Assembly: GCA_000827205.1 (NCBI GenBank)
Contig: KN832557.1
Coordinates: forward strand, 1,583,771-1,647,770
Source of the DNA: Plicaturopsis crispa FD-325 SS-3
Taxonomy: Eukaryota; Basidiomycota; Agaricomycetes; Amylocorticiales; Amylocorticiaceae
Reading direction: 5' to 3'
Length of the DNA stretch: 64,000 nt
Each line of letters begins with the position of its first letter. The stretch's first letter is position 1. Below are positions 24,244 through 35,794 of the stretch, in pieces. A program made the translations under genes and the position numbers. Under the pieces are notes generated by a model. The model saw only the letters and a program-made list of their open reading frames with translations, was not told where the DNA came from and did no database searches.

Positions 24244-26076
24244 ATGAACCCCGATGGTCTTAAATTCAACGCGCCATGGATGCACGGGAACCCAAGCACC
24301 GTCAACCCCCACCAGCGCGACTTTGGGAATCCGAGCTTCCCGCCGATGATCACATATGGCCAAGCTTACCCTACGTCTGGTGGCCCAATATACCCGTACG
24401 GCCAATGGCAACCGATGGTACCCCCCATGTATGGCGCCTACCACTGTCTCCCGCCAGCATTTTACCCGACCGGCCAACTTCGCCAATTCATGGTCGATGA
24501 AGAACAGACTCTTGTGGGTGCCTTAGCCGACGGTGACGAGTTCAGTGCGTTAGACGGCGTAAGCTCCTTCCCTCCATCTCCGGTACATCGTAGACTGATC
24601 GGACGCCAAATGTAGCTCAACGGGCGTAGTTACCTAGAGTGGGAAAACCACTACTTGAAGCACAAGGTTCGGCTTGACGACATGGTTAAGGCTGCTAAGA
24701 GCAGGTCCTCAGCTACGAGTGTAACACATTGTAGCGACGAGGATATCAGCGCGGAGTCGCATCCGACGTCCTCCGGGCAGAACAAAAAAAGGCCGCTCGA
24801 ATCCGATTCTGGCTCGGATTTGCCCCCTAGATGCTCGCCGCCTCGCGTCTCGGCTGAGAGGCCCAACGAACCCCCTCCTTCATCTACCGCCAGAAGCAGA
24901 AATAACACCCACACCGTTATAGCCCTGTCTGAATCATCGGAACCACGTTCGACGCATGCTCCCGCTCCCAAGAAGAGTCGTACATCTGCTAGCAAGGAGG
25001 ATAGTCACAAACACACTCAAGATCCCAAACTGTTTTTCCCTTTGACACATACCGGGTCCTCAACGTCTTCCCATGGACCTGATTCTGCCCGCCGGCAACA
25101 TAAACCGGTCTCATCTAAGCATGACGGGCAGAGACTGCCGACGTCAAATGTCACTATACGCGCCTACAACGTACAAGGAGCGCCGGATATTACGAGGCTA
25201 CCGCGGGATCGATCACCCAGGCCACCCTCCTCCGTAGTTCGTCGCGGAAGGGGCTACGCGTTCACCGAGGAGGACAAGAAATTCTTCCGTTCGACTTTGC
25301 TCCACGAAATTCATAAGAATAGAAACGTGGGGCGAGACGAGATCATAAGGAAACTGTGTGCCAAGGTGAGCTTTCGCGAGGTCGAGTCCCACTGCCATGC
25401 ATAATCATCTTCTGACTATGTGTGACATAGGCGCCCCACCATACCGTGAACTCATGGAAACATTATTGGGATCGTTTGCCAGGAATCAATGAGCTCGTAG
25501 CCAACTCAAGGAATAACGGAGCGGTCGCCCTAAATGCTGACGTTGACACCGGCATTTTCGAAGAGTCGGCCCACAATGCATCCAGCGACGACGATGCCGA
25601 GCAGCGAGCCAGTTGTGCAAAGACGAGGCAAGAGCCTTGGTCCCAGGATGAGGAGGCAGCACTTGCGAGGCATATTGCATCGCTTCCTTTCAAACAAGCG
25701 GGCAAGATGGAATGGGCTCGATGCCACATCGAGGTAAGCTCACTGGACGTACTTGCTACCATACCCCTTCAAGTTGTGCACATCTTTGGCCTCCGAGTCG
25801 CTCGTGCTTACTACTGTTTCAGATCCCTCACCGAAGTGTATACGCCATCGCGGCGTATTACAAGAGGCATAGTGCCAGTGAGTTCAGATGTCCCAATTCA
25901 TGGGCAGGTCATTGACTGATACTTCTCTGACTATAGAGATTGACAGACTGATACATACGATGGGGCTGGTAACGGGGTCAAGCGCGAGCTCCGCAAAAAT
26001 CTCAGCATCGGACTCAGACCCAGAGGCTGAATGGCCAGCGAGTGTGCATATCTATGGATATGACTCCGATGAGTAG
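24244..26076 (+). CDS. Protein with three Rap1/Myb-like modules, paralog A
   Basis: Five exons: 24244-24558, 24616-25365, 25431-25733, 25823-25877 and 25937-26076; 520 aa. Three helix-turn-helix-like modules are visible. Module 1, about residues 84-133, has DEEQTLVGALAD then NGRSYLEWENHYLKH. Module 2, about 318-382, has YAFTEEDKKFFRSTLLHEI then HHTVNSWKHYWDRLPGINEL. Module 3, about 423-475, has EPWSQDEEAALARHIASL then PHRSVYAIAAYYKRH. Each begins with acidic residues before the first helix and ends with an aromatic/Trp recognition helix, as in Myb_DNA-bind_2 (Rap1-type) domains. A Ser/Pro-rich linker with KKRPLESDSGSD separates modules 1 and 2. Every module is interrupted by a phase-0 intron nine codons before the recognition-helix aromatic position. 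DNA binding is inference. Its paralog lies at 34468. Confidence 0.72.
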
Positions 26077-26458
26077 GTGGGTCCCGTTCTGCACGGCACT
26101 GGCACGCTGTAAGTGCGACATACAATGTACATGGGTTTTCTGGCTTCTCTTGGCTGTCCTACTGTTTCTTGATTACATCTTAGATACATAGCAGATAAAA
26201 TGCCCGAGGGCAAGACAAATATGATACGAGTAACTGTAGATGCTCTATGGGATATTACACGATAACACAGGCATATAAATCTGAAGTCGAGTCCGAATCA
26301 AGAGAAAACATCCCTATCCACATCCAAGCACAGCAACCGATAATCTATGGGGAAAAATCATAAGAGATAAAAAAGACAAGCGCGGCCTGGTCACCGCCAT
26401 AAAGGTACATGGTGCCCGCGGATAAGCAGATAGCCGATAAAGAAATGGAAGGGAGAGA

Positions 26459-29400
26459 TCACGAATAGTAGCCCGAAGTCCAGTACGTAGGGGCGTTGGT
26501 TGTATCAGGAGACTGCTGCGCCCAGCCATCCTGCCTGTCTGACATGGCGGACGAGTACGACTGAGGTGCTCCATCCGTGGGCTTGATGTCGTATGCGGGT
26601 TTCTCCAGCATCGAGGGAGCGTAACCGTACATTCCATTGTACGACATTGTTGGCGCCGCAGGTGGCGCGGACGGTGTGATATCCATGGGATGTGGTGGTT
26701 GCTGCTGCCGTTGTTGCAGCGGCTGTCCGAGCGCATTCAAGCCCAAACCGTTGAGCGAGATAGTAGAGGGCCCCGCGGGCGCGTAGTTCGGGGGCATGTA
26801 CATGTTTTGGGGAGGGTGGCCGCTTGGTGGCGGGGGTGCACCGCTGGAATAGTCCGATTGGGACATGTGGTGCTGGTGGGGCGGCATAGCGTAGGAAGGC
26901 GTGGTTGCCGTGAACGGCGACCCCGATTGCGACGACATGTGTCTCGAGTGGGGACGTGAGAAGCCAGGACTCCGCCCGGCAGAATAGGGACGGTGATCGT
27001 CGTACACGCCCGGCGGCGTGTAGCCGTCGTACGATTGGACCTGCGACTGTTGCGGATAGGGATTCATCTGGGGCTGATGTGGTGGGCGCTCATGGGATAT
27101 TGGCTCCGAATTCGCGTCGATGGTGCCCATCCGCTGAGATGGCATCGACTGTCCATTCATATGCTGGTCGCCGTTCCCGGAGGCGTATGCGACCGAGTAG
27201 TCGGCTGGGGTGCTCTGTACGTCCAATTGCTGCATGGCCTGGAATTGGTGTTGTTGCGGATAGGGCGGTTGCTGCTCCTGCGGTTGAGTCCTCACATCGT
27301 CGAATGGTCCTGGCCTACTAGGTCGATCGCTATTACTTGCCGTCGACAACCGACGTTGACGCCCATTGTCGATGCTTGGCTTGTGCGCTGGCGTATGTGA
27401 TGGCGCGGGGAGTGGGGGCGCAGGCATCGGCGAAGCATTTACGGGAGAGTCCGTTGAGGTTGTCTGCGAGTCGTTGTTCTCCCCGTAGCGCACCCGGATG
27501 CCAGTCCTCGGATATGATGCCTTCTTGGTGACCTTGGCTATCTTTTTGGGTGGCGTTCCTGCTTTCTTTGCCGCAGAATCAGGTGGAGGCTTCGGCTTCG
27601 GCGGGGCCGGAGAGCTGTCAACCTTGGCAACAGGCTGGTTTGAAGGTTCCGGATGAGCATTTGAGAATGGTGGATTCAGGACAGTAGATGTGTTGGGAGT
27701 AGATAAGGCCACGGGGAATTCCGACGCCAAGTTGACGCCACCGCCACTAACGTTCGTCGACGCATCTTCTGGGCTATCAGTGTTGTCCCGCTTGCGCTTC
27801 AAGCTGTTGGCGTCGGTGGGCGCAGGGAGATCAGCCGGTGGCGGCTTGGTGTCGGCGCTTGAGCCAACGTCGACGCTGGCAGCGGCTCCAGCATACGCGC
27901 ACGTTGCCTTCTCCGACATCACGTCGAGGAAACGTAGGACCTCCTTTCCACATTGGCCCCTCCGCAGCAGATCCGCAGCCTTCTTGACATCCTCCACCGC
28001 AGCGCTAGCCCATACCGCTCCTGGGCGCTGGACGACTGCGTAGGCACAAATCGCGGCCGCGTCGAAGAGCGTCCGCCGCTGCGACGTGGTGTGCGGCTTG
28101 GGTGCGCGAGAATCTGCAGGCTGTAAGATTCGGGCAGCGTGTACGATTTCATGTGCGGCCCCAACGCTACCACCGGCCGCCTGCTGCGACCGAGGTCCGT
28201 TGAGGAAGGGTAGATATCCCGAGAGCACGAGTCTGTGCGCAGTGCTGAGAAGCTCGCATCGCTGGGCGACGACGTGGGGTGGGTCGTCGTCGCGGGATAC
28301 GCGGATGGAGGGCGGTATATCGGATAGATACTGGTTGATGTCTCCTTCAAGCGCTGCAGAGTCATCGATAGAGGTGCTGACGGAAGCGCGCTTCTTGAAG
28401 CTATGCACAAGTTGTGCGAGTCTATGACAGCGATAAGGATTGGAAAGCGCACATTACTGTGCGTCAAGGCTTACCGGCACCGTGCACCGAACCAGTCGTT
28501 ATTTGAAGGGATGCGGGTGGTGAACGACGCATCGTTGATGAGTGGGGCATGTGCAAGGGCATCGGATATGAACCTGTAAGGCACGGTGATCAGAGAGGTG
28601 CCACTGTGTTCAGACCGCAGGAGTAGGTGCAACGCACAGGTCACACCAGACAACACCCCACCAAAGTCCTCTTCTCGCCTCCTTCACGTTGTACTCCAGA
28701 TTGCTTCCCCTGTCCAAGTCCGGGTCTTGGTGCAAGCCCAGCGCACGAGCAGCGTTCACCAGTTTGCCAATCTGTCCCGCACATCTTAGCTTCACGATAA
28801 AGAGATCACGCAGAACATCATACTCACCAGCACAAACGCGCTTTCCACCCCCGTCTTCTTGCCCTCCCCATCGTAGCCTTCGACACCGGTCTCTGCAGCA
28901 AGCGTTGCACACATGACATGCACCAGCAGCGCAGTGACGGCGTCGACCTCAAGCCCCGGGCCGCTTGATCCGCCCTGATGTTCGCACACATCCAGGGCCT
29001 GTCGGGAAAGCGCCAAGAGGGTGCGCGGCGAATGGCGCTCATCAGGGATAGCGGCAGCATCAGTACGTTTCCCTTTGCCCTTACGTGCAGCAGGGGCGGA
29101 CTGTGGGAGCGGATTTGACGGTGCTGGAAGAGCCGAAAGCGCAAACAAGGCGGCCATGAGCGCGAAGAACGGCAAGCTTGGTTGAGCAGCTGGCTCCTCG
29201 ATATCCCAGTCGCTATCGAGGCTGTCTGGTGGTTTTTCTTCTGTCTCCGCTCGTCCATCCAGCGGGGCACTCGTAAACAGTGGCGATCCGAAAAACACTT
29301 TCCTCGCCTCCTCGGCCTTCTTCCTCTTCTCCTTCTCAGCGCGAGTCTCGCCGATTATCCCTGCACCTGCCCATGCGAAGACACCTTCGCATCGTGCCCG

Positions 29401-30216
29401 TATGCGCCGCCAATCCACGCCAGGGGTCATCATGCATACCTCCTCTATGCACCCGTAAGCCTCACGGCGGGCAGTGGGGGAGGCGGGGAAGTATGTCTTC
29501 ACGAGCTCAGCGGGGACGGATGGGAGAGGAGTTGCTCCCGAATAGTAGATCGACTGGGCAGGAAGGAGCTTGTGCAGCGGTGTCGGCTCAGGCGGATCGG
29601 CTTCGTACTTGACGTGTCCAGTTGTGAATGAGGAGGGCGTAAGGGACGAGTAGATGTCCAGTGGTGCGAGAAGGATAGACTGTACGTCGGCGAGTGGTAT
29701 TGAGAGGCTGCTCCCGCCCGAAGCGAAGGTCATCATGGACGGCGACGATGATATCGGGCATGTAGATAGTAAGGCGATTTGCGACTCGACGGAGATAAGA
29801 CGATTGTTGAGGGAGTGCAAGTCACTGCCTGCCCCTTTAGTAGAAGCTTGCAGTCAAGCTGGAGAGACGTACACTTTCTCGGCCGCTGCTGGGGAGTATA
29901 CGCAACGCGACACCGTGTCGCGCTTGACGCAGGAGCCGCACGGGCTGCGACGATCGCATCGCAGTTTCAGACGTTTGCACTAAGTAGATGTGGAGCCGTC
30001 AGTAATCCCGAGTTCACATAAGTATGGCACAGAGCGTGACACTCACTTCTGCACAAACGACGGTGACCCGTGAGCGAATTTGACTGCGGGCGACAAGTCA
30101 GCTCGTGTGTGAATATGTAGAAGGCGATATACGCACGGGCCTGTGCTGCTGTTCACTGAAGAACTAGCGGGATTCGCTGCGCCCTGCGTAGACGTCGTCG
30201 TCGCCGGAGCGTCCAT
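26459..30216 (-). CDS. Zn(II)2Cys6 transcription factor with fungal_trans domain
   Basis: Multi-exon gene of about 1100 aa. Exons 30137-30216, 30047-30083 and 29873-29979 join to give the zinc cluster VVCAECKRLKLRCDRRSPC then GSCVKRDTVSRC. Its cysteines sit near residues 37, 40, 47, 53, 56 and 65, the canonical C-x2-C-x6-C-x5-C-x2-C-x8-C. A linker and short coiled coil follow (DLHSLNNRLISVESQIALLS, exon from 29824). The middle homology region has KLVNAARALGLHQDPDLDRG, EARRGLWWGVVWCDL and DINQYLSDIPPSI. The C-terminal third is Pro/Gln/Ser-rich and probably an activation region. The intron at 29980-30046 falls between the first two zinc-ligand cysteines. The target pathway cannot be inferred. 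Confidence 0.92.
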
Positions 30217-30799
30217 CGTATTCGTCGCAAGCGTGACGATGGCGGTTATATGTCCGAAGAAAGCAGAGAACTAGCAAAGAACGGCAAGAAGGCGGTGGTG
30301 GAAGGAAGAGAAGAAGGAGCGATTGCCTCAATCGCGCAACCAAGTTTCCCTCGCTCAATGCTCATTTACGTACACAACTTATGCGAACGCTTGTTGTGTT
30401 TCCTTTCGACCCTGTCCGCATTTTAAAAAGTACATATGTACTTTATCGAGCTGCTCTGCTTCTCTTCTTCATGACCTTGGAGATGGCAGTGGAAAGCGTT
30501 CAAAAATGCGCAAGCTGCAACGAGCACACTGCACACCATGCGTTTTGTGATTACCGGAGGGCGATTGGATCTGTGATCGCACTATACAACGTTCGCGGAG
30601 CTACACCTACCTACCTACAGGCTACCAGTCTCCGGATGGCGAGCAAGAAGCCTGAGATTTCGCCGGTCAAGACTTAAGAAGGCGGCGATGGCGGTGGGTC
30701 TGCTATATGTTGCACTGAGCACCATATGATCCTGTATCCTCGTAGATTTAGAATCAATTATGTTGCTCGTGAAGATACAGGGTGGTCCCAAGTACTCAC

Positions 30800-31230
30800 G
30801 TTCTTCTGGTGGAAGACGGATGCTGGCAAGGATTTCCGGTGCCGTCGCAGCGCGCGTGAAGGCCCGTCGGGTTCGCATCCACGAAATATGTCCTCAAGTA
30901 CTTACTTACGCGCGACGGTGCCCCTGCGGCTCCGGCTCTGCTCTGCAGATCCATACAATCTAGGGCCATGCATATGGCGGCACATGTGACGGTCACCGCT
31001 GTAGTCAAGCCACCCAATGCGTACCCGCTTGCCGTTGCACCCGAAGAGCTTGAGTACTGCCCTGCGTGCTTCAACGCATAACGAAGAAAGAAAACGGGCG
31101 TACTGTCACGCACGTTCACTAGGGAGAACATGGTCTGGTGATACTGGGCTTCTTGCCATTTCGACCTGGCCTTGAGAAAGTCCTGCTCCCTGAGCCAAGG
31201 AAAGCCACTAGAGGGATCTGCGGAGAATCG
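30800..31230 (-). CDS. Hypothetical protein exon, possibly membrane protein
   Basis: An open frame without a usable ATG, so if real it is an internal exon. It contains SGFPWLREQDFLKARSKWQE, TPVFFLRYALKHAGQ and a hydrophobic helix LGGLTTAVTVTCAAICMAL. A strong donor-like GTAAGT sits at its 3' end near 30907. I could not find a consistent first exon or last exon. The composition looks coding, but the gene model and function are unknown. Confidence 0.3.
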
Positions 31231-31688
31231 CACGCGTCAGAGATAGCGGGGTGAGCGGCGGCGCACAGGAGACGAAATTTCTGGGGAACAGGAGCGCCCC
31301 AGCGGCTACCAAGCACGCACTATGGCCTGCATGAGCCAATGAGAGGGGTATTCTGAAATGCAAGCCTTAGTGCGGGGAGTTTCCATATGAAATTAGAGGG
31401 CAGTAGTTTTGCGCTTCCTCGGACATGTTAGAGATGAAGCTCGAAGCTTGAAGGCCAGGCGGATGCGAAGTCGTGCGCCGGGAATTTTAAATGGCGATGT
31501 CTGAGGAAAATGGGACGAGCCCGTCTGCAGATGCAAGGCTTGATTTCACCCATTTAAAATGGTCGTACATGCAACAGAATAAACCGATCATCGCTTGACG
31601 AGGGATCAGTAAAGGGCAAGGGCGAGCCAGGAGCTAAAGGCCACGCACGCAAGGACAGGCGGTTAACGGAGTGCCCACGGCGAGAGGG

Positions 31689-33579
31689 TCAATACTCATC
31701 GTATTCATCCTCCACTGCGTCCTGCTCTGCCGCGATCCTGTCCCGGGCCTCCTGTACATACGTACGCATCAGGCCCACAACTTTCGTCAAGTTCTGGCTA
31801 TGTCGCGCTGACGTCGGCACAACAGCCAGGGCCCGCGCGCCCTCGTCCCCGTCCGATTGCACGCCCATCTCCCGCCGCACAAAGTCCTCCAGCCTCGCTA
31901 GCTTCGCACGCGCCTCCACGACCTCGTCCTCGGTGTTGTCCCCGGCCAGGAGGTCCGCCTTGTTCGCGATGACCATACGCGCCTTCCCACTCATGCCCGG
32001 CTGATACTTCTCCAGCTCTTCCCGCAGAACGCGCAGCTCGTCCCACGGCGCGGGCCCGGAAAGATCGACGACGTACACGAGCGCGAGCGAGCGCTCCATG
32101 GAGCGTAGGAAAGAGTGCCCGAGCCCAACGTTCTCAGACGCGCGCGAGATCAGCCCGGGGTTGTCCGCGATCGTGAAGCGAAAGGCCTCAACGATGTCGA
32201 ACCGGTGCCCCGCGCCGTAGACGTCAGCAGGCGCCTGGTTGCGCGTCAACGCGTCGGCATACGCCCCGCTCGCCATCAGCGCGCGTTCGCGTTCCTGCTC
32301 GAGCACGGTGTCCTCGTAGACCACCGGCCCGTGCACGTTGCCTTCGAACGTGCCGTCCTCGGCAACACGCACAATCCCGACGACGGGGTTGAGCGTCGTG
32401 AATGCGTAGCTCGCGACCTCGCTCTTCACCCTGCCCCCGGTGAGCGCGCGCAGCAGCGTGCTCTTCCCCGCGTTCGGCATGCCAACGAGGCCCACGTCCG
32501 CGAGCAGCTTCAGCTCGAGCTCGAGCGTGACGCGCTCGCCCTCGTGCCCGCGAGTCGCGAACTTGGGCGAGCGGTTGATCTGCGAGAGGAAGTGCGGGTT
32601 GCCGAGGCCGCCAATCCCGCCTGAGGCGACGAGGTGCCCGAGGGGCTCGCGGTGGCCGGTCCCGAGCGGCGCATCGTCCGCGACGGCCGTGTCCTCCGCC
32701 TTGTCCAGGTCGAGGAACAGCGGCGTCTCGGCGCGCTGCCGGCGGTCCCATTTGCGCTCCCGCTCCTGGCGCGCCATGGCCTTCTCCGCGTCCTTGAACG
32801 AGTCTCGCTCCTGGTTCGCCTCCTCGTAGAGCGGGTAGTGCACCCACCGCCGCTCGCGTCGCTTCTTGACCTTGTCTTCCTCAGACAGCTCGGCCAGCGC
32901 CTCCTCCTCTGCCTCCCATTCGTCCTTCGCCCTCCGCGGATCGCCTACCGGTATCTCGCGCACGACCGTGCCGAGGGGTACTCGGATGACGGTTGGAGGG
33001 CCGGCACGGCCATTCTGCCATGTCCCTTGACCGTTTCCGCCTGGGACACCGCGTATACGCTTCGGAACGGAGGACAAGGTTGTCAGATGGGGTGTAGGCA
33101 GTATATGGACTGCACCGCCATGTCCACCGTTACCACCTGAGGGTGGTCCAAAGGGCTTGAACTTTTCACGGTGAAAAGCTACGCAGCCGTCGCCGCCCTT
33201 GCCTGAGAAGCGTGCATGTCCATTAATTCTGTACTGGATGCCTTTGCAGACGAACTCACCTCCCCGAATGTTCACGACGACATGGTCTAGGAAGCTTTGC
33301 CCCTACTCCCAGGTCTCGTTAGCACGTCAGTAGTATCTGTATTCAGGCACGAACCCGCTGTCTTCGTTTCCATTCCGTCTTTCGTTTCCGGCGCTCTGCC
33401 TCCCAGAGTGCGTGCTGGTCTAGTTCCTCTTCATCTTCTGCATCGGCGATGCGCGACACACTAGCTGACGAATATGCGTGTCTGCAGCTGCTGCTGCTAC
33501 CGAGGTTGTTCAAGGGTGCTTGCCTCCGCGGGACCGAGCGCGTAGAATGGGAAAGTTGCGCGATGGCATTTCTGAGCAT
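31689..33579 (-). CDS. MTG2: Mitochondrial Obg-family GTPase
   Basis: Three exons: 33355-33579, 33260-33302 and 31689-33202; 593 aa. The N-terminus MLRNAIAQLSHSTRSVPRRQ is basic and Ser-rich, like a mitochondrial presequence. The Obg fold has FLDHVVVNIRGGKGGDGC, FHREKFKPFGPPSGGNGGHG and TVIRVPLGTVV. The G domain has VGLVGMPNAGKSTLLRALTG (G1), YAFTTLNPVVG (G2), FTIADNPGLI (G3) and VIANKADLL (G4). An acidic insertion of about 90 residues splits the Obg fold. Mtg2 binds the mitochondrial large ribosomal subunit in its late assembly. The 57-nt intron at 33203-33259 is in frame and stop-free; reading through it would break the glycine-rich Obg loop, so I splice it out. Confidence 0.95.
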
Positions 33580-33729
33580 CCGGATGCTGAAGCAACGATG
33601 AAAAGATGCGACCTGTTCGGGTCAGTTAGGGCACCAGAAAGCGTGTAGAAAGCACCTGAGAGAACAGGACTTCGACGGTAGCAAACGGTGGAAATGACAG
33701 TCGCGGATGAAGGAACTGAAAAATATTCG

Positions 33730-34225
33730 ACGCGTCCGCCGCGGCCATCGTCGCGTCGCGTGCGCCGGATCCGACTGTTCCAACTTCCTCTTGTTCTTGT
33801 CGTTGCGTTCTCGTATGGAAAACGTACATGGGCTAGCCTCAATATGCAAACTATCCCGTCATGTGTCGAGTTATTGACAGCGAATTCAATTTGAAAGATC
33901 GCTCTCCCATGTCAGAGCGTAGAAATCCATCATTGCCCCCGCTTCCAGCATGTTGTGGGTTCAAGAACTTGCGGTGAGTGGCATTTTCTGCTACTTTCCA
34001 AACACTTGAGTGCCTCTGATTGCTTCTCCTGAATACAGAGCGTGTTTGAGGACGCCCACATCAGTTGCACGGCGTTGGTGCATCGAGACTGGAGTCGCTG
34101 AGCCCTGCCCGCCGCAAATTGAAATACGTTGACAGAGAAGGTGATTCCCTCCCAATCCAGGTGACAGGTATACTGCGCAGATACCCCTCTGTCCCCGGGA
34201 GTGACTGCTGACTCCACTCGATTCT
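33730..34225 (+). repeat. Decayed direct repeat, copy 1
   Basis: Shares many ordered blocks with 36110-36480 in the same orientation: CCTCTTGTTCTTGTCGTT, GTCAGAGCGTAGAAAT, a GTGAG donor-like site, CTTTCCAAA, TGAATACAG, then CACGGCG/CACGGTG and TGACTGCTGAC/CAACTGCTGAC. The conserved GTGAG...TGAATACAG pair looks like an intron of about 75 nt, so the repeat may be a duplicated gene fragment. No long open frame survives in both copies. Confidence 0.6.
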
Positions 34226-34467
34226 GCCCCCGCGTACTTTTCTTTCGTGAACCCAACATTGACCACATAACATAGGACCGCTGCAGTTCCCGATGGCTCA
34301 GCAGCACTTCTTGCAAGCACATGCAAATTATCCTGGGGTCTTCAATGCTTCTATCCAAGGAAATTCCGGAAATTCGTGCGCTTTTATAACACGCCTAGCT
34401 ACGGTGGAACGACTGCTAATCGTGCTCGTTTTCCACTAGTAGGACCCAGCCCTTCGCTCCCTCAGGC

Positions 34468-35794
34468 ATGCTTGTAATGCAGCCTGTTTCTTTCTTTCCG
34501 CCCGGCGGGATCACCGGAGTGTGTGGTCAGTTTGGTGACGACGACGAGGACCTGCTTGTCGACACGCTCGCGCAAACAGCCGAGCGCTGCGATGAGCTCG
34601 AAGCGCTTCAGAAATTGGCTGGCGTAAGTTAATCCTTCTGCTTGCGCTATGTGCTAGTAGTCCCTGACGGTCACATTTGTTCAAGTGTAATGGACACAGC
34701 TACGAACAGTGGCGAGACTACTGGCTCAGCCACTCAAGGCGCCTTAAGAAAATGGTCAGCGAGCGCGCGCAAATTCGTGGCTCTACGAAGGCAGTTTGGA
34801 TCAAGACTGAAAAAGGTGTCCGCCAGCGAAGCCCGAGCGTTGTCATCGTTGAGTCCACTCCCCGCGACAAATTCTCCTTCGAAGATGCAAAAGCTCTTGT
34901 CAATGCCCTCGCCCATCGCCGTGGAGAAAATAGCCTCAAAGATGTTTTCGAAGGGCTCGCCGGAGCAAGTCTTTTTCTCTACAGCCTACGTGCTATCCGC
35001 TGACATCCGTGTGTCTAGCACAACGGGCACAGCTATGCTCAATGGGTCGACTTCTACCTCACCCATGCCAAAGAGCTCAACGGCATGATGCCCGACTCCG
35101 CAAACGCCAAACAGGCAGGCAGTCAAGACGGCGACAAACATGGAGAAAACAGCTCCGTCGTGCGCGTAGTACGCCCAAAGCGTCCTCTGACCCCACACCC
35201 GTCAGCCGGACCTTCTCGTCACTCTCAGCGGCGCCGTCTTGGCTCTCCGGATGAGGATGATGCCGGGACCGCGTCCTCGGAGATATCTGTCCCACTTTCT
35301 GGCCAGCGTCAGCTGGCGCTCACCGCTCCCAAAAACTTGTCTTCCAACTCCCATCGCAAAGCAGATTCAGACTCGGACGATGGCTCGTCGGAATGGGAAG
35401 ATGATGAAGAGAGTAAATCCCGGCTGGGTAAAAACTACTCTGACGCCGAAAAGGAGGCCCTCGCACGGCATGTCGCCTCGATACCACGCAACTCAAGGCT
35501 TATGAAATGGGGCAAGCTCGAAAGAGCGGTGAGTGTTCAACAGTACCGAGTGCTTCAAAGGTTCGGCTCTAAATCTTCGCGTCGCATACAGTTCAGTACT
35601 CGAACGGCTTCGGCGTGGGGTAAATATTATAGATCGCATGTCCGCGGTACGTGCACACTGATTCATTCTCAAACTACGATAGCATGGTCTTGACAGTACT
35701 GATAACATTTTATCTGTCAGAAGTCGAGGATCACATCGAGTCCCTCGGGTTGATTCGTCCGGACACGGGTCCTTACCTCACCTCAACTGGCTAG
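34468..35794 (+). CDS. Protein with three Rap1/Myb-like modules, paralog B
   Basis: Five exons: 34468-34623, 34686-34964, 35019-35528, 35592-35646 and 35721-35794; 357 aa. Module 1 (residues about 22-76) has DDDEDLLVDTLAQ then NGHSYEQWRDYWLSHSRRL. Module 2 (about 115-170) has FSFEDAKALVNALAHRRGE then NGHSYAQWVDFYLTHAKEL. Module 3 (about 283-333) has YSDAEKEALARHVASIPRNS then TRTASAWGKYYRSH. Modules 1 and 2 are close copies of each other (KLAG/GLAG, then NGHSY-x-Q-W). Intron 2 needs a GC-AG splice (donor GCAAGT) to keep the frame. Exon 4 is 55 nt long, exactly as in paralog A. An acidic Ser-rich linker (DSDDGSSEWEDDEE) precedes module 3. A telomeric or other DNA-binding role is only suggested by the Rap1-like fold. 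Confidence 0.74.

Follow-up and report, generated by a model that had tools for sequence, protein, structure and literature searches.

Two genes of the basidiomycete Plicaturopsis crispa FD-325 SS-3, here called G1 and G2, lie on the forward strand of the analysed window, a stretch of 64,000 nucleotides from contig KN832557.1 (positions 1,583,771 to 1,647,770), and encode proteins with three Myb-like modules each, whose relation to Rap1 is considered here. G1 occupies window positions 24244-26076, and splicing of its five coding exons (24244-24558, 24616-25365, 25431-25733, 25823-25877 and 25937-26076) gives an open frame of 520 amino acids, in an exon pattern common to the family models described below. 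For G2 (34468-35794), the exons 34468-34623, 34686-34964, 35019-35528, 35592-35646 and 35721-35794 are joined into an open frame of 357 amino acids. The introns measure 57, 65, 89 and 59 nt in G1 and 62, 54, 63 and 74 nt in G2, their phases are 0, 0, 0 and 1 in both genes, and exon 4 is 55 nt long in each. Seven of the eight introns are of the GT-AG type; the second intron of G2 (34965-35018) is GC-AG, with GCAAGT as donor.

Modules were scored against profiles of their class (M1, M2 or M3), built without the module under test, and 2,000 shuffles were used as chance level for G1 module 1 and the three modules of G2, but not for G1 modules 2 and 3. G1 module 1 (24478-24699), acidic with a net charge of -4 and split by a phase-0 intron (24559-24615), reaches 56.7 bits against the M1 profile (best shuffle 9.4). 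Both remaining G1 modules are basic: module 2 (25246-25511, net +5, phase-0 intron 25366-25430) weakly matches Myb_Rap1, and module 3 (25626-25968, net +3, introns 25734-25822 in phase 0 and 25878-25936 in phase 1) weakly matches Myb_DNA-binding. The last 20 codons of G1 (26014-26073) carry a conserved C-terminal motif, EWPASVHIYGYDSDE, which is present in seven of the eleven family genes (G1, C29, C10, C36, C47, C1 and C31). In G2, module 1 (34522-34769, acidic, net -5, phase-0 intron 34624-34685) scores 78.7 bits (best shuffle 13.5), and module 3 (35424-35752, basic, net +4, introns 35529-35591 in phase 0 and 35647-35720 in phase 1) scores 80.2 bits (best shuffle 8.5); the values are 58.6 and 66.9 bits, respectively, when C4b, a near sister of G2, is also excluded from the profiles. 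The third intron of G2, 63 nt long, is in frame and free of stop codons, and its retention would lengthen module 3 by 21 residues, placed between helices 2 and 3.

The middle module of G2 (34863-35102, acidic, net -2), which contains the GC-AG intron in phase 0, scores as a second copy of the M1 type, with 56.3 bits against the M1 profile (best shuffle 14.0) and -0.3 against the M2 profile. The middle module of C4b behaves similarly (61.3 bits for M1, 7.3 for M2), and on these scores the architecture of G2 is given as M1-M1'-M3, while approximately unbiased (AU) tests on the module tree do not decide between a placement of the G2 middle module with M1 (p 0.367) and with M2 (p 0.344). The original prediction, made from the sequence of the window, had described a paralogous pair with matching exon structure, five coding exons, a 55-nt exon 4 and three modules per gene, all of which is borne out by the open frames and by profile scores far above the shuffles. 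The pair matches in exon structure, but its middle modules do not appear to be counterparts of each other. The low-complexity linkers, which had also been described as shared, are alike in composition, but homology between them is not demonstrated, the two proteins being 30% identical overall (261 aligned codons).

Members of the family and their exon signature

The source genome (33.2 Mb, 49 contigs) was searched using the G1 and G2 proteins as queries, and nine further genes were obtained as spliced models: C29, C10, C36, C47, C1, C31, C2, C4b (C4:1676k) and C4c (C4:1295k). The resulting eleven genes are a lower bound for the size of the family. Ten of the models extend from ATG to stop, the model of C4c having no start codon. 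When C2, C4c and C29 served as queries, no further members of this kind came up, but the matches led to one gene on contig C3 and one on contig C7, discussed below. Two weak places on contig C1 yielded no convincing module (best E 0.007 in a database of two loci, among the best 8 of 366 matches at E up to 10). A scan of viral contigs with the module-2 alignment found no relative, a result that says little for a fungal gene.

Seven genes have the architecture M1-M2-M3, G2 and its sister C4b have M1-M1'-M3, and C1 and C31 consist of M1-M3. In a tree of modules 1 and 3 from the eleven genes, G2 clusters with C4b (support 97/97) and G1 with C29, C10, C36 and C47 (91/93); the branch of C2 is long. 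The closest relatives by identity are C29 for G1 (48%) and C4b for G2 (51%), the latter about 57 kb away. An arrangement of G1 and G2 as sister copies, i.e. as a recent tandem pair, was rejected on the same tree (AU p 0.000126). A simple local duplication of the two genes is thus not supported, because they are not sisters and the middle module of G2 scores as M1 type. As to the local expansion suggested by the original prediction, the genes do belong to a multigene family, and some local growth is possible, since four of its eleven members lie on contig C4 (binomial p 0.0036, under an assumption of independent copies that these copies do not satisfy).

The exon signature is constant throughout the family. 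Each of the 31 modules in the eleven genes has its first internal intron in phase 0; the key residue of the third helix, Trp in 24 modules and Ile in 7, is the ninth after that intron, and the penultimate exon is 55 nt long in 11 of 11 models. The same phase and spacing are found in the three modules of the C3 gene, the first of which has an extra intron four residues further on and the second an extra one inside its first part, and in the two modules of the C7 gene. In RAP1 of this genome, too, the loop preceding the third helix is interrupted by a phase-0 intron, with Trp at position 17. The constancy of phase and spacing is read as a sign that whole units were multiplied together with their introns. 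In the three-module genes, exons 2 and 3 start and end in phase 0, so that gain or loss of a module would keep the frame. The family models are homology-based and their intron positions may lean toward those of the seed genes, though the aligner permits any phase; the first models of C2 and C4c, built with G1 and G2 as queries, already had the intron pattern at most modules, along with extra small introns that were dropped in later models, and the middle module of C4c was recovered only with a later query.

Between G1 and G2, on the reverse strand, sits a gene for an Obg-type GTPase (31692-33275). Three further reading frames near the two genes, of 342-744 amino acids, and one of 78 amino acids gave no Pfam match at 0.001.

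Relation to Rap1

The Pfam cut-offs used were 27.1 bits for Myb_Rap1 (PF08914), 24.4 for Myb_DNA-binding and 22.4 for Rap1-DNA-bind (PF09197). The C4c protein passes Myb_Rap1 (36.8 bits, E 5.3e-9) and, barely, Rap1-DNA-bind (22.8 bits); each of its modules aligns along the greater part of the Myb_Rap1 profile, with no single module above the cut-off. Against family profiles built without C4c, its modules 1, 2 and 3 score 74.8, 42.5 and 50.9 bits, the best of 2000 shuffles reaching 13.5 and 11.9 for modules 2 and 3 (module 1 was scored without shuffles). A second connection is provided by the C3 gene, which encodes a BRCT_2 domain (33.3 bits) together with three Myb_Rap1 modules that total 41.5 bits (29.9 for the last alone, 19.1 and 20.5 for the others), and whose protein matches C2 at E 5e-6 over a 96-residue stretch that includes the first module. 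The C7 gene (L036, G000:C7:552000-557000, about 303-2880) combines BRCT_2 with two Rap1-like modules that receive no Pfam name at E 0.1; an N-terminal stretch of its product resembles a second BRCT by eye, and none was reported by Pfam. The genome's own RAP1 (C2:588k) consists of BRCT_2 and Myb_Rap1 (42.6 bits).

The G1 protein as a whole obtains 13.9 bits against Myb_Rap1, under the cut-off, with 18.9 bits (E 0.002) for module 2 alone; its module 3 obtains 16.1 bits (E 0.012) against Myb_DNA-binding, again under the cut-off. Nine of the family proteins other than C4c match one of these two models at E below 1, and G2 neither. G1 and G2 are consequently classed as relatives of Rap1 through homology and not through direct hits, since they fall short of Myb_Rap1 and yet are homologous to C4c, which passes it. 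The Rap1-type relation put forward in the original prediction is upheld in this indirect way, through C4c and the BRCT-bearing C3 gene; the Myb_Rap1 cut-off is passed by these relatives but not by G1 and G2 themselves.

Profile comparisons also connect the module classes, with E 2.7e-6 for M1 against M3 and 8e-5 for M2 against M3, and M1 resembles the RAP1 module at E 9e-6 over 25 columns. Comparison of a half-module profile with PDB gave chance-like matches and was set aside. Pfam scans found no BRCT match in any of the eleven family proteins, the C4c model lacking its start. A six-frame Myb_Rap1 search of the genome detected RAP1 alone, probably because introns split each module of the family.

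Charge, constraint and alternative readings

A charge split runs through the modules of the family. Net charge is between -7 and +1 for modules of the M1 type (12 of 13 negative) and between +3 and +7 for M2 and M3, which are positive in all 18 cases (7 of 7 and 11 of 11), with an isoelectric point (pI) above 9. In the other genes the values are +6 and -7 for the C7 modules, +2 to +4 for those of C3 and +2 for the RAP1 module. Ratios of nonsynonymous to synonymous substitution (dN/dS) over whole genes are 0.32 for C10/C36, 0.24 for C10/C47, 0.26 for C36/C47 and 0.52 for C1/C31; values of 0.16 for G2/C4b and 0.32 for G1/C29 are less sure, dS exceeding 1. In the pairs formed by C10, C36 and C47, dN/dS is 0.12-0.23 in the modules that yielded a value (module 1 did so in one of the three pairs only), 0.35-0.51 in the linkers, 0.36-0.51 in the N-terminal part and 0.15-0.28 in the last 20 codons, preceded by a short stretch at 0.63-0.83. 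For C1/C31 the ratio is 0.21 and 0.33 in the modules, 0.48 in the linker and 1.89 over a stretch of 46 codons that precedes the last 20.

Taken together, these data suggest, with a probability of about 0.6, that G1 and G2 belong, as divergent members, to a BRCT-less, Rap1-type multi-Myb family of at least eleven genes, which most likely derives from a BRCT-plus-Myb gene and whose products are likely nuclear, with M2 and M3 contacting DNA and M1 docking. The observation behind the original prediction is confirmed, and its overall interpretation partly supported. The ancestor would most likely have been a Rap1-like gene in which the Myb unit, with its intron, multiplied; later on, single genes would have been copied to scattered places of the genome, and modules gained or lost in frame through phase-0 exons. 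The basic M2 and M3 modules may contact DNA, by analogy with budding yeast Rap1 and its pair of DNA-binding domains, the acidic M1 modules may serve as docking sites for protein partners, and in the G1 branch the conserved C-terminal peptide could recruit a cofactor. This division of roles is proposed on the basis of charge, of homology and of the varied DNA binding among Rap1 proteins.

Several observations weigh against this reading. G1 and G2 pass no Pfam cut-off, G2 matching no Myb family, and C4c is the sole family protein above a Myb cut-off in whole-protein scans (1 of 11); C10, C36, C47, C1 and C31 match the general Myb_DNA-binding model only, and below its cut-off. The C3 and C7 models were derived from queries assembled by eye, and the models of C3, C7, C4c and RAP1 have no start codon. 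Comparisons of the M1 and M2 (E 0.0074), M3 and RAP1 (0.0014) and M2 and RAP1 (0.038) profiles are weak, the position of RAP1 in the module tree is unsettled, and a search of PDB with full-module profiles found no Rap1 chain, the best Myb chain being at E 0.006 (M1). Constraint on modules 2 and 3 of G1/C29 (0.34 and 0.36) is only slightly above that on the linker (0.43), and DNA binding is poorly predicted by net charge.

It is unlikely, on the present data, that the modules serve for docking only, all of them binding proteins and none DNA. Such behaviour has precedents, since fission yeast Rap1, in contrast to the budding yeast protein with its two DNA-binding domains, is reported not to bind DNA, mammalian Rap1 to bind it weakly (PMC4839565), and the human protein, in one study, to show no direct binding up to a ratio of 40:1 (PMC4357705), and the acidic character of the M1-type modules would agree with it; the uniformly basic M2 and M3 modules would not, nor would the resemblance of 6 of 11 M3 modules to Myb_DNA-binding (best E 9.1e-5) and the score of the whole C10 protein, 0.3 bits under the cut-off. 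A role of the family at telomeres or subtelomeres, with binding to the DNA of chromosome ends like that of budding yeast Rap1, appears distinctly unlikely. Its relation to Rap1, seen through C4c and the C3 gene, is in favour, as is the C47 copy, which lies 6.9-8.5 kb from a contig end bearing TTAGGG repeats and is the only one of the 11 copies known to be near such an end; the C36 and C31 copies are 0.5-2.1 kb and 0.3-1.3 kb from contig ends, but neither end showed the repeat. At the end of contig C31 (L022), minisatellite-like, low-complexity sequence was seen by eye, in the reading frames, beside the two-module gene copy. For seven of the eleven copies the contig exceeds 1.3 Mb and the nearest end is over 300 kb away, and Rap1_C (RCT, PF11626) was not found in a six-frame genome search whose control matched nowhere either, nor listed for the family proteins. 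Moreover, TTAGGG ends are retained in this genome, and another basidiomycete with ends of this kind, Ustilago maydis, reportedly employs Tay1 and Trf2 at them (PMC7952879, PMC7744550), which makes a main telomere role less likely.

An origin from mobile elements, with the genes belonging to, or tamed from, a transposon that encoded a Myb protein, would explain the scattered single-gene copies. C10 and C36 are alike over 2.2 kb (84%) and C1 and C31 over 1.26 kb (92%), i.e. over the gene and little beyond. A diverged repeat of 108-152 bp (74-77%) adjoins the C10 and C36 copies and recurs within the C10 locus in opposite direction (L019 2670-2820; L020 659-809 and 3114-3221), and weak matches to HTH_48, of the Mos1 transposase, are found in two of seven module-2 sequences. 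The repeat was, however, not found at the other loci searched for it, no terminal repeats were seen by eye in the four pairs of duplication ends inspected (C10/C36, C1/C31), and the genes have four introns (three in C1 and C31) with constant phases, are under purifying selection and have BRCT-bearing relatives. On balance this origin is very improbable. On contig C36 (L042, L043) a long reading frame, perhaps that of a KDZ-type transposase, is present twice, the copies having diverged to about 68% over 2.4 kb.

The preferred reading, that of a BRCT-less multi-Myb family of Rap1 type, can tentatively be extended to a radiation of Rap1-derived regulators, in which a self-contained, intron-split Myb unit would be added, lost or swapped in frame, acidic modules would dock and basic ones read DNA, and each copy would read a different DNA site while recruiting the same partner. 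This wider reading is less likely than not.

Comparison with known systems

Rap1 is known for shifting between two roles, the protection of telomeres and the regulation of genes. The coexistence in one genome of RAP1, two genes that combine BRCT with several Myb modules and eleven or more multi-Myb genes without BRCT would record the multiplication and reuse of the DNA-reading unit of a telomere protein, and the fixed intron position may serve as a marker for tracing this multiplication. Routine surveys could miss the family, because 10 of its 11 proteins fall under the Pfam Myb cut-offs and its modules are split by introns. No account of a triple Rap1-type family was found among the papers listed by a literature search that covered subscription journals thinly and is therefore no proof of novelty.

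The MYB genes of Ganoderma, counted with PF08914 among other models, are likewise from a basidiomycete, and GC-AG introns were noted there too; in the available parts of these accounts (PMC7407476, PMC8955403), which were compared by description only, neither a triple Rap1-type family nor the exon signature seen here is described. The fungal Tay1 and TayL2 proteins share with the family the presence of several Myb motifs, two or perhaps three per protein, but are reported to be of the TRF-like Myb type (PMC7952879), a distinction drawn from description and not from sequence. Rap1 of Saccharomyces cerevisiae, which combines Myb_Rap1 and Rap1-DNA-bind, is closer in having more than one Rap1-type module per protein, and C4c passes both models; compared without alignment to the yeast protein, the family differs in having no BRCT match, long linkers between modules and an acidic first module. 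With respect to Rap1 in general, i.e. the BRCT-Myb-RCT proteins of yeasts and human, the family is set apart by module number (two or three, against one or two), by the lack of a BRCT match in 11 of 11 proteins and by its many copies, while it appears to share the module type, as seen through C4c and the C3 gene, and an intron in the same loop as that of the genome's own RAP1.

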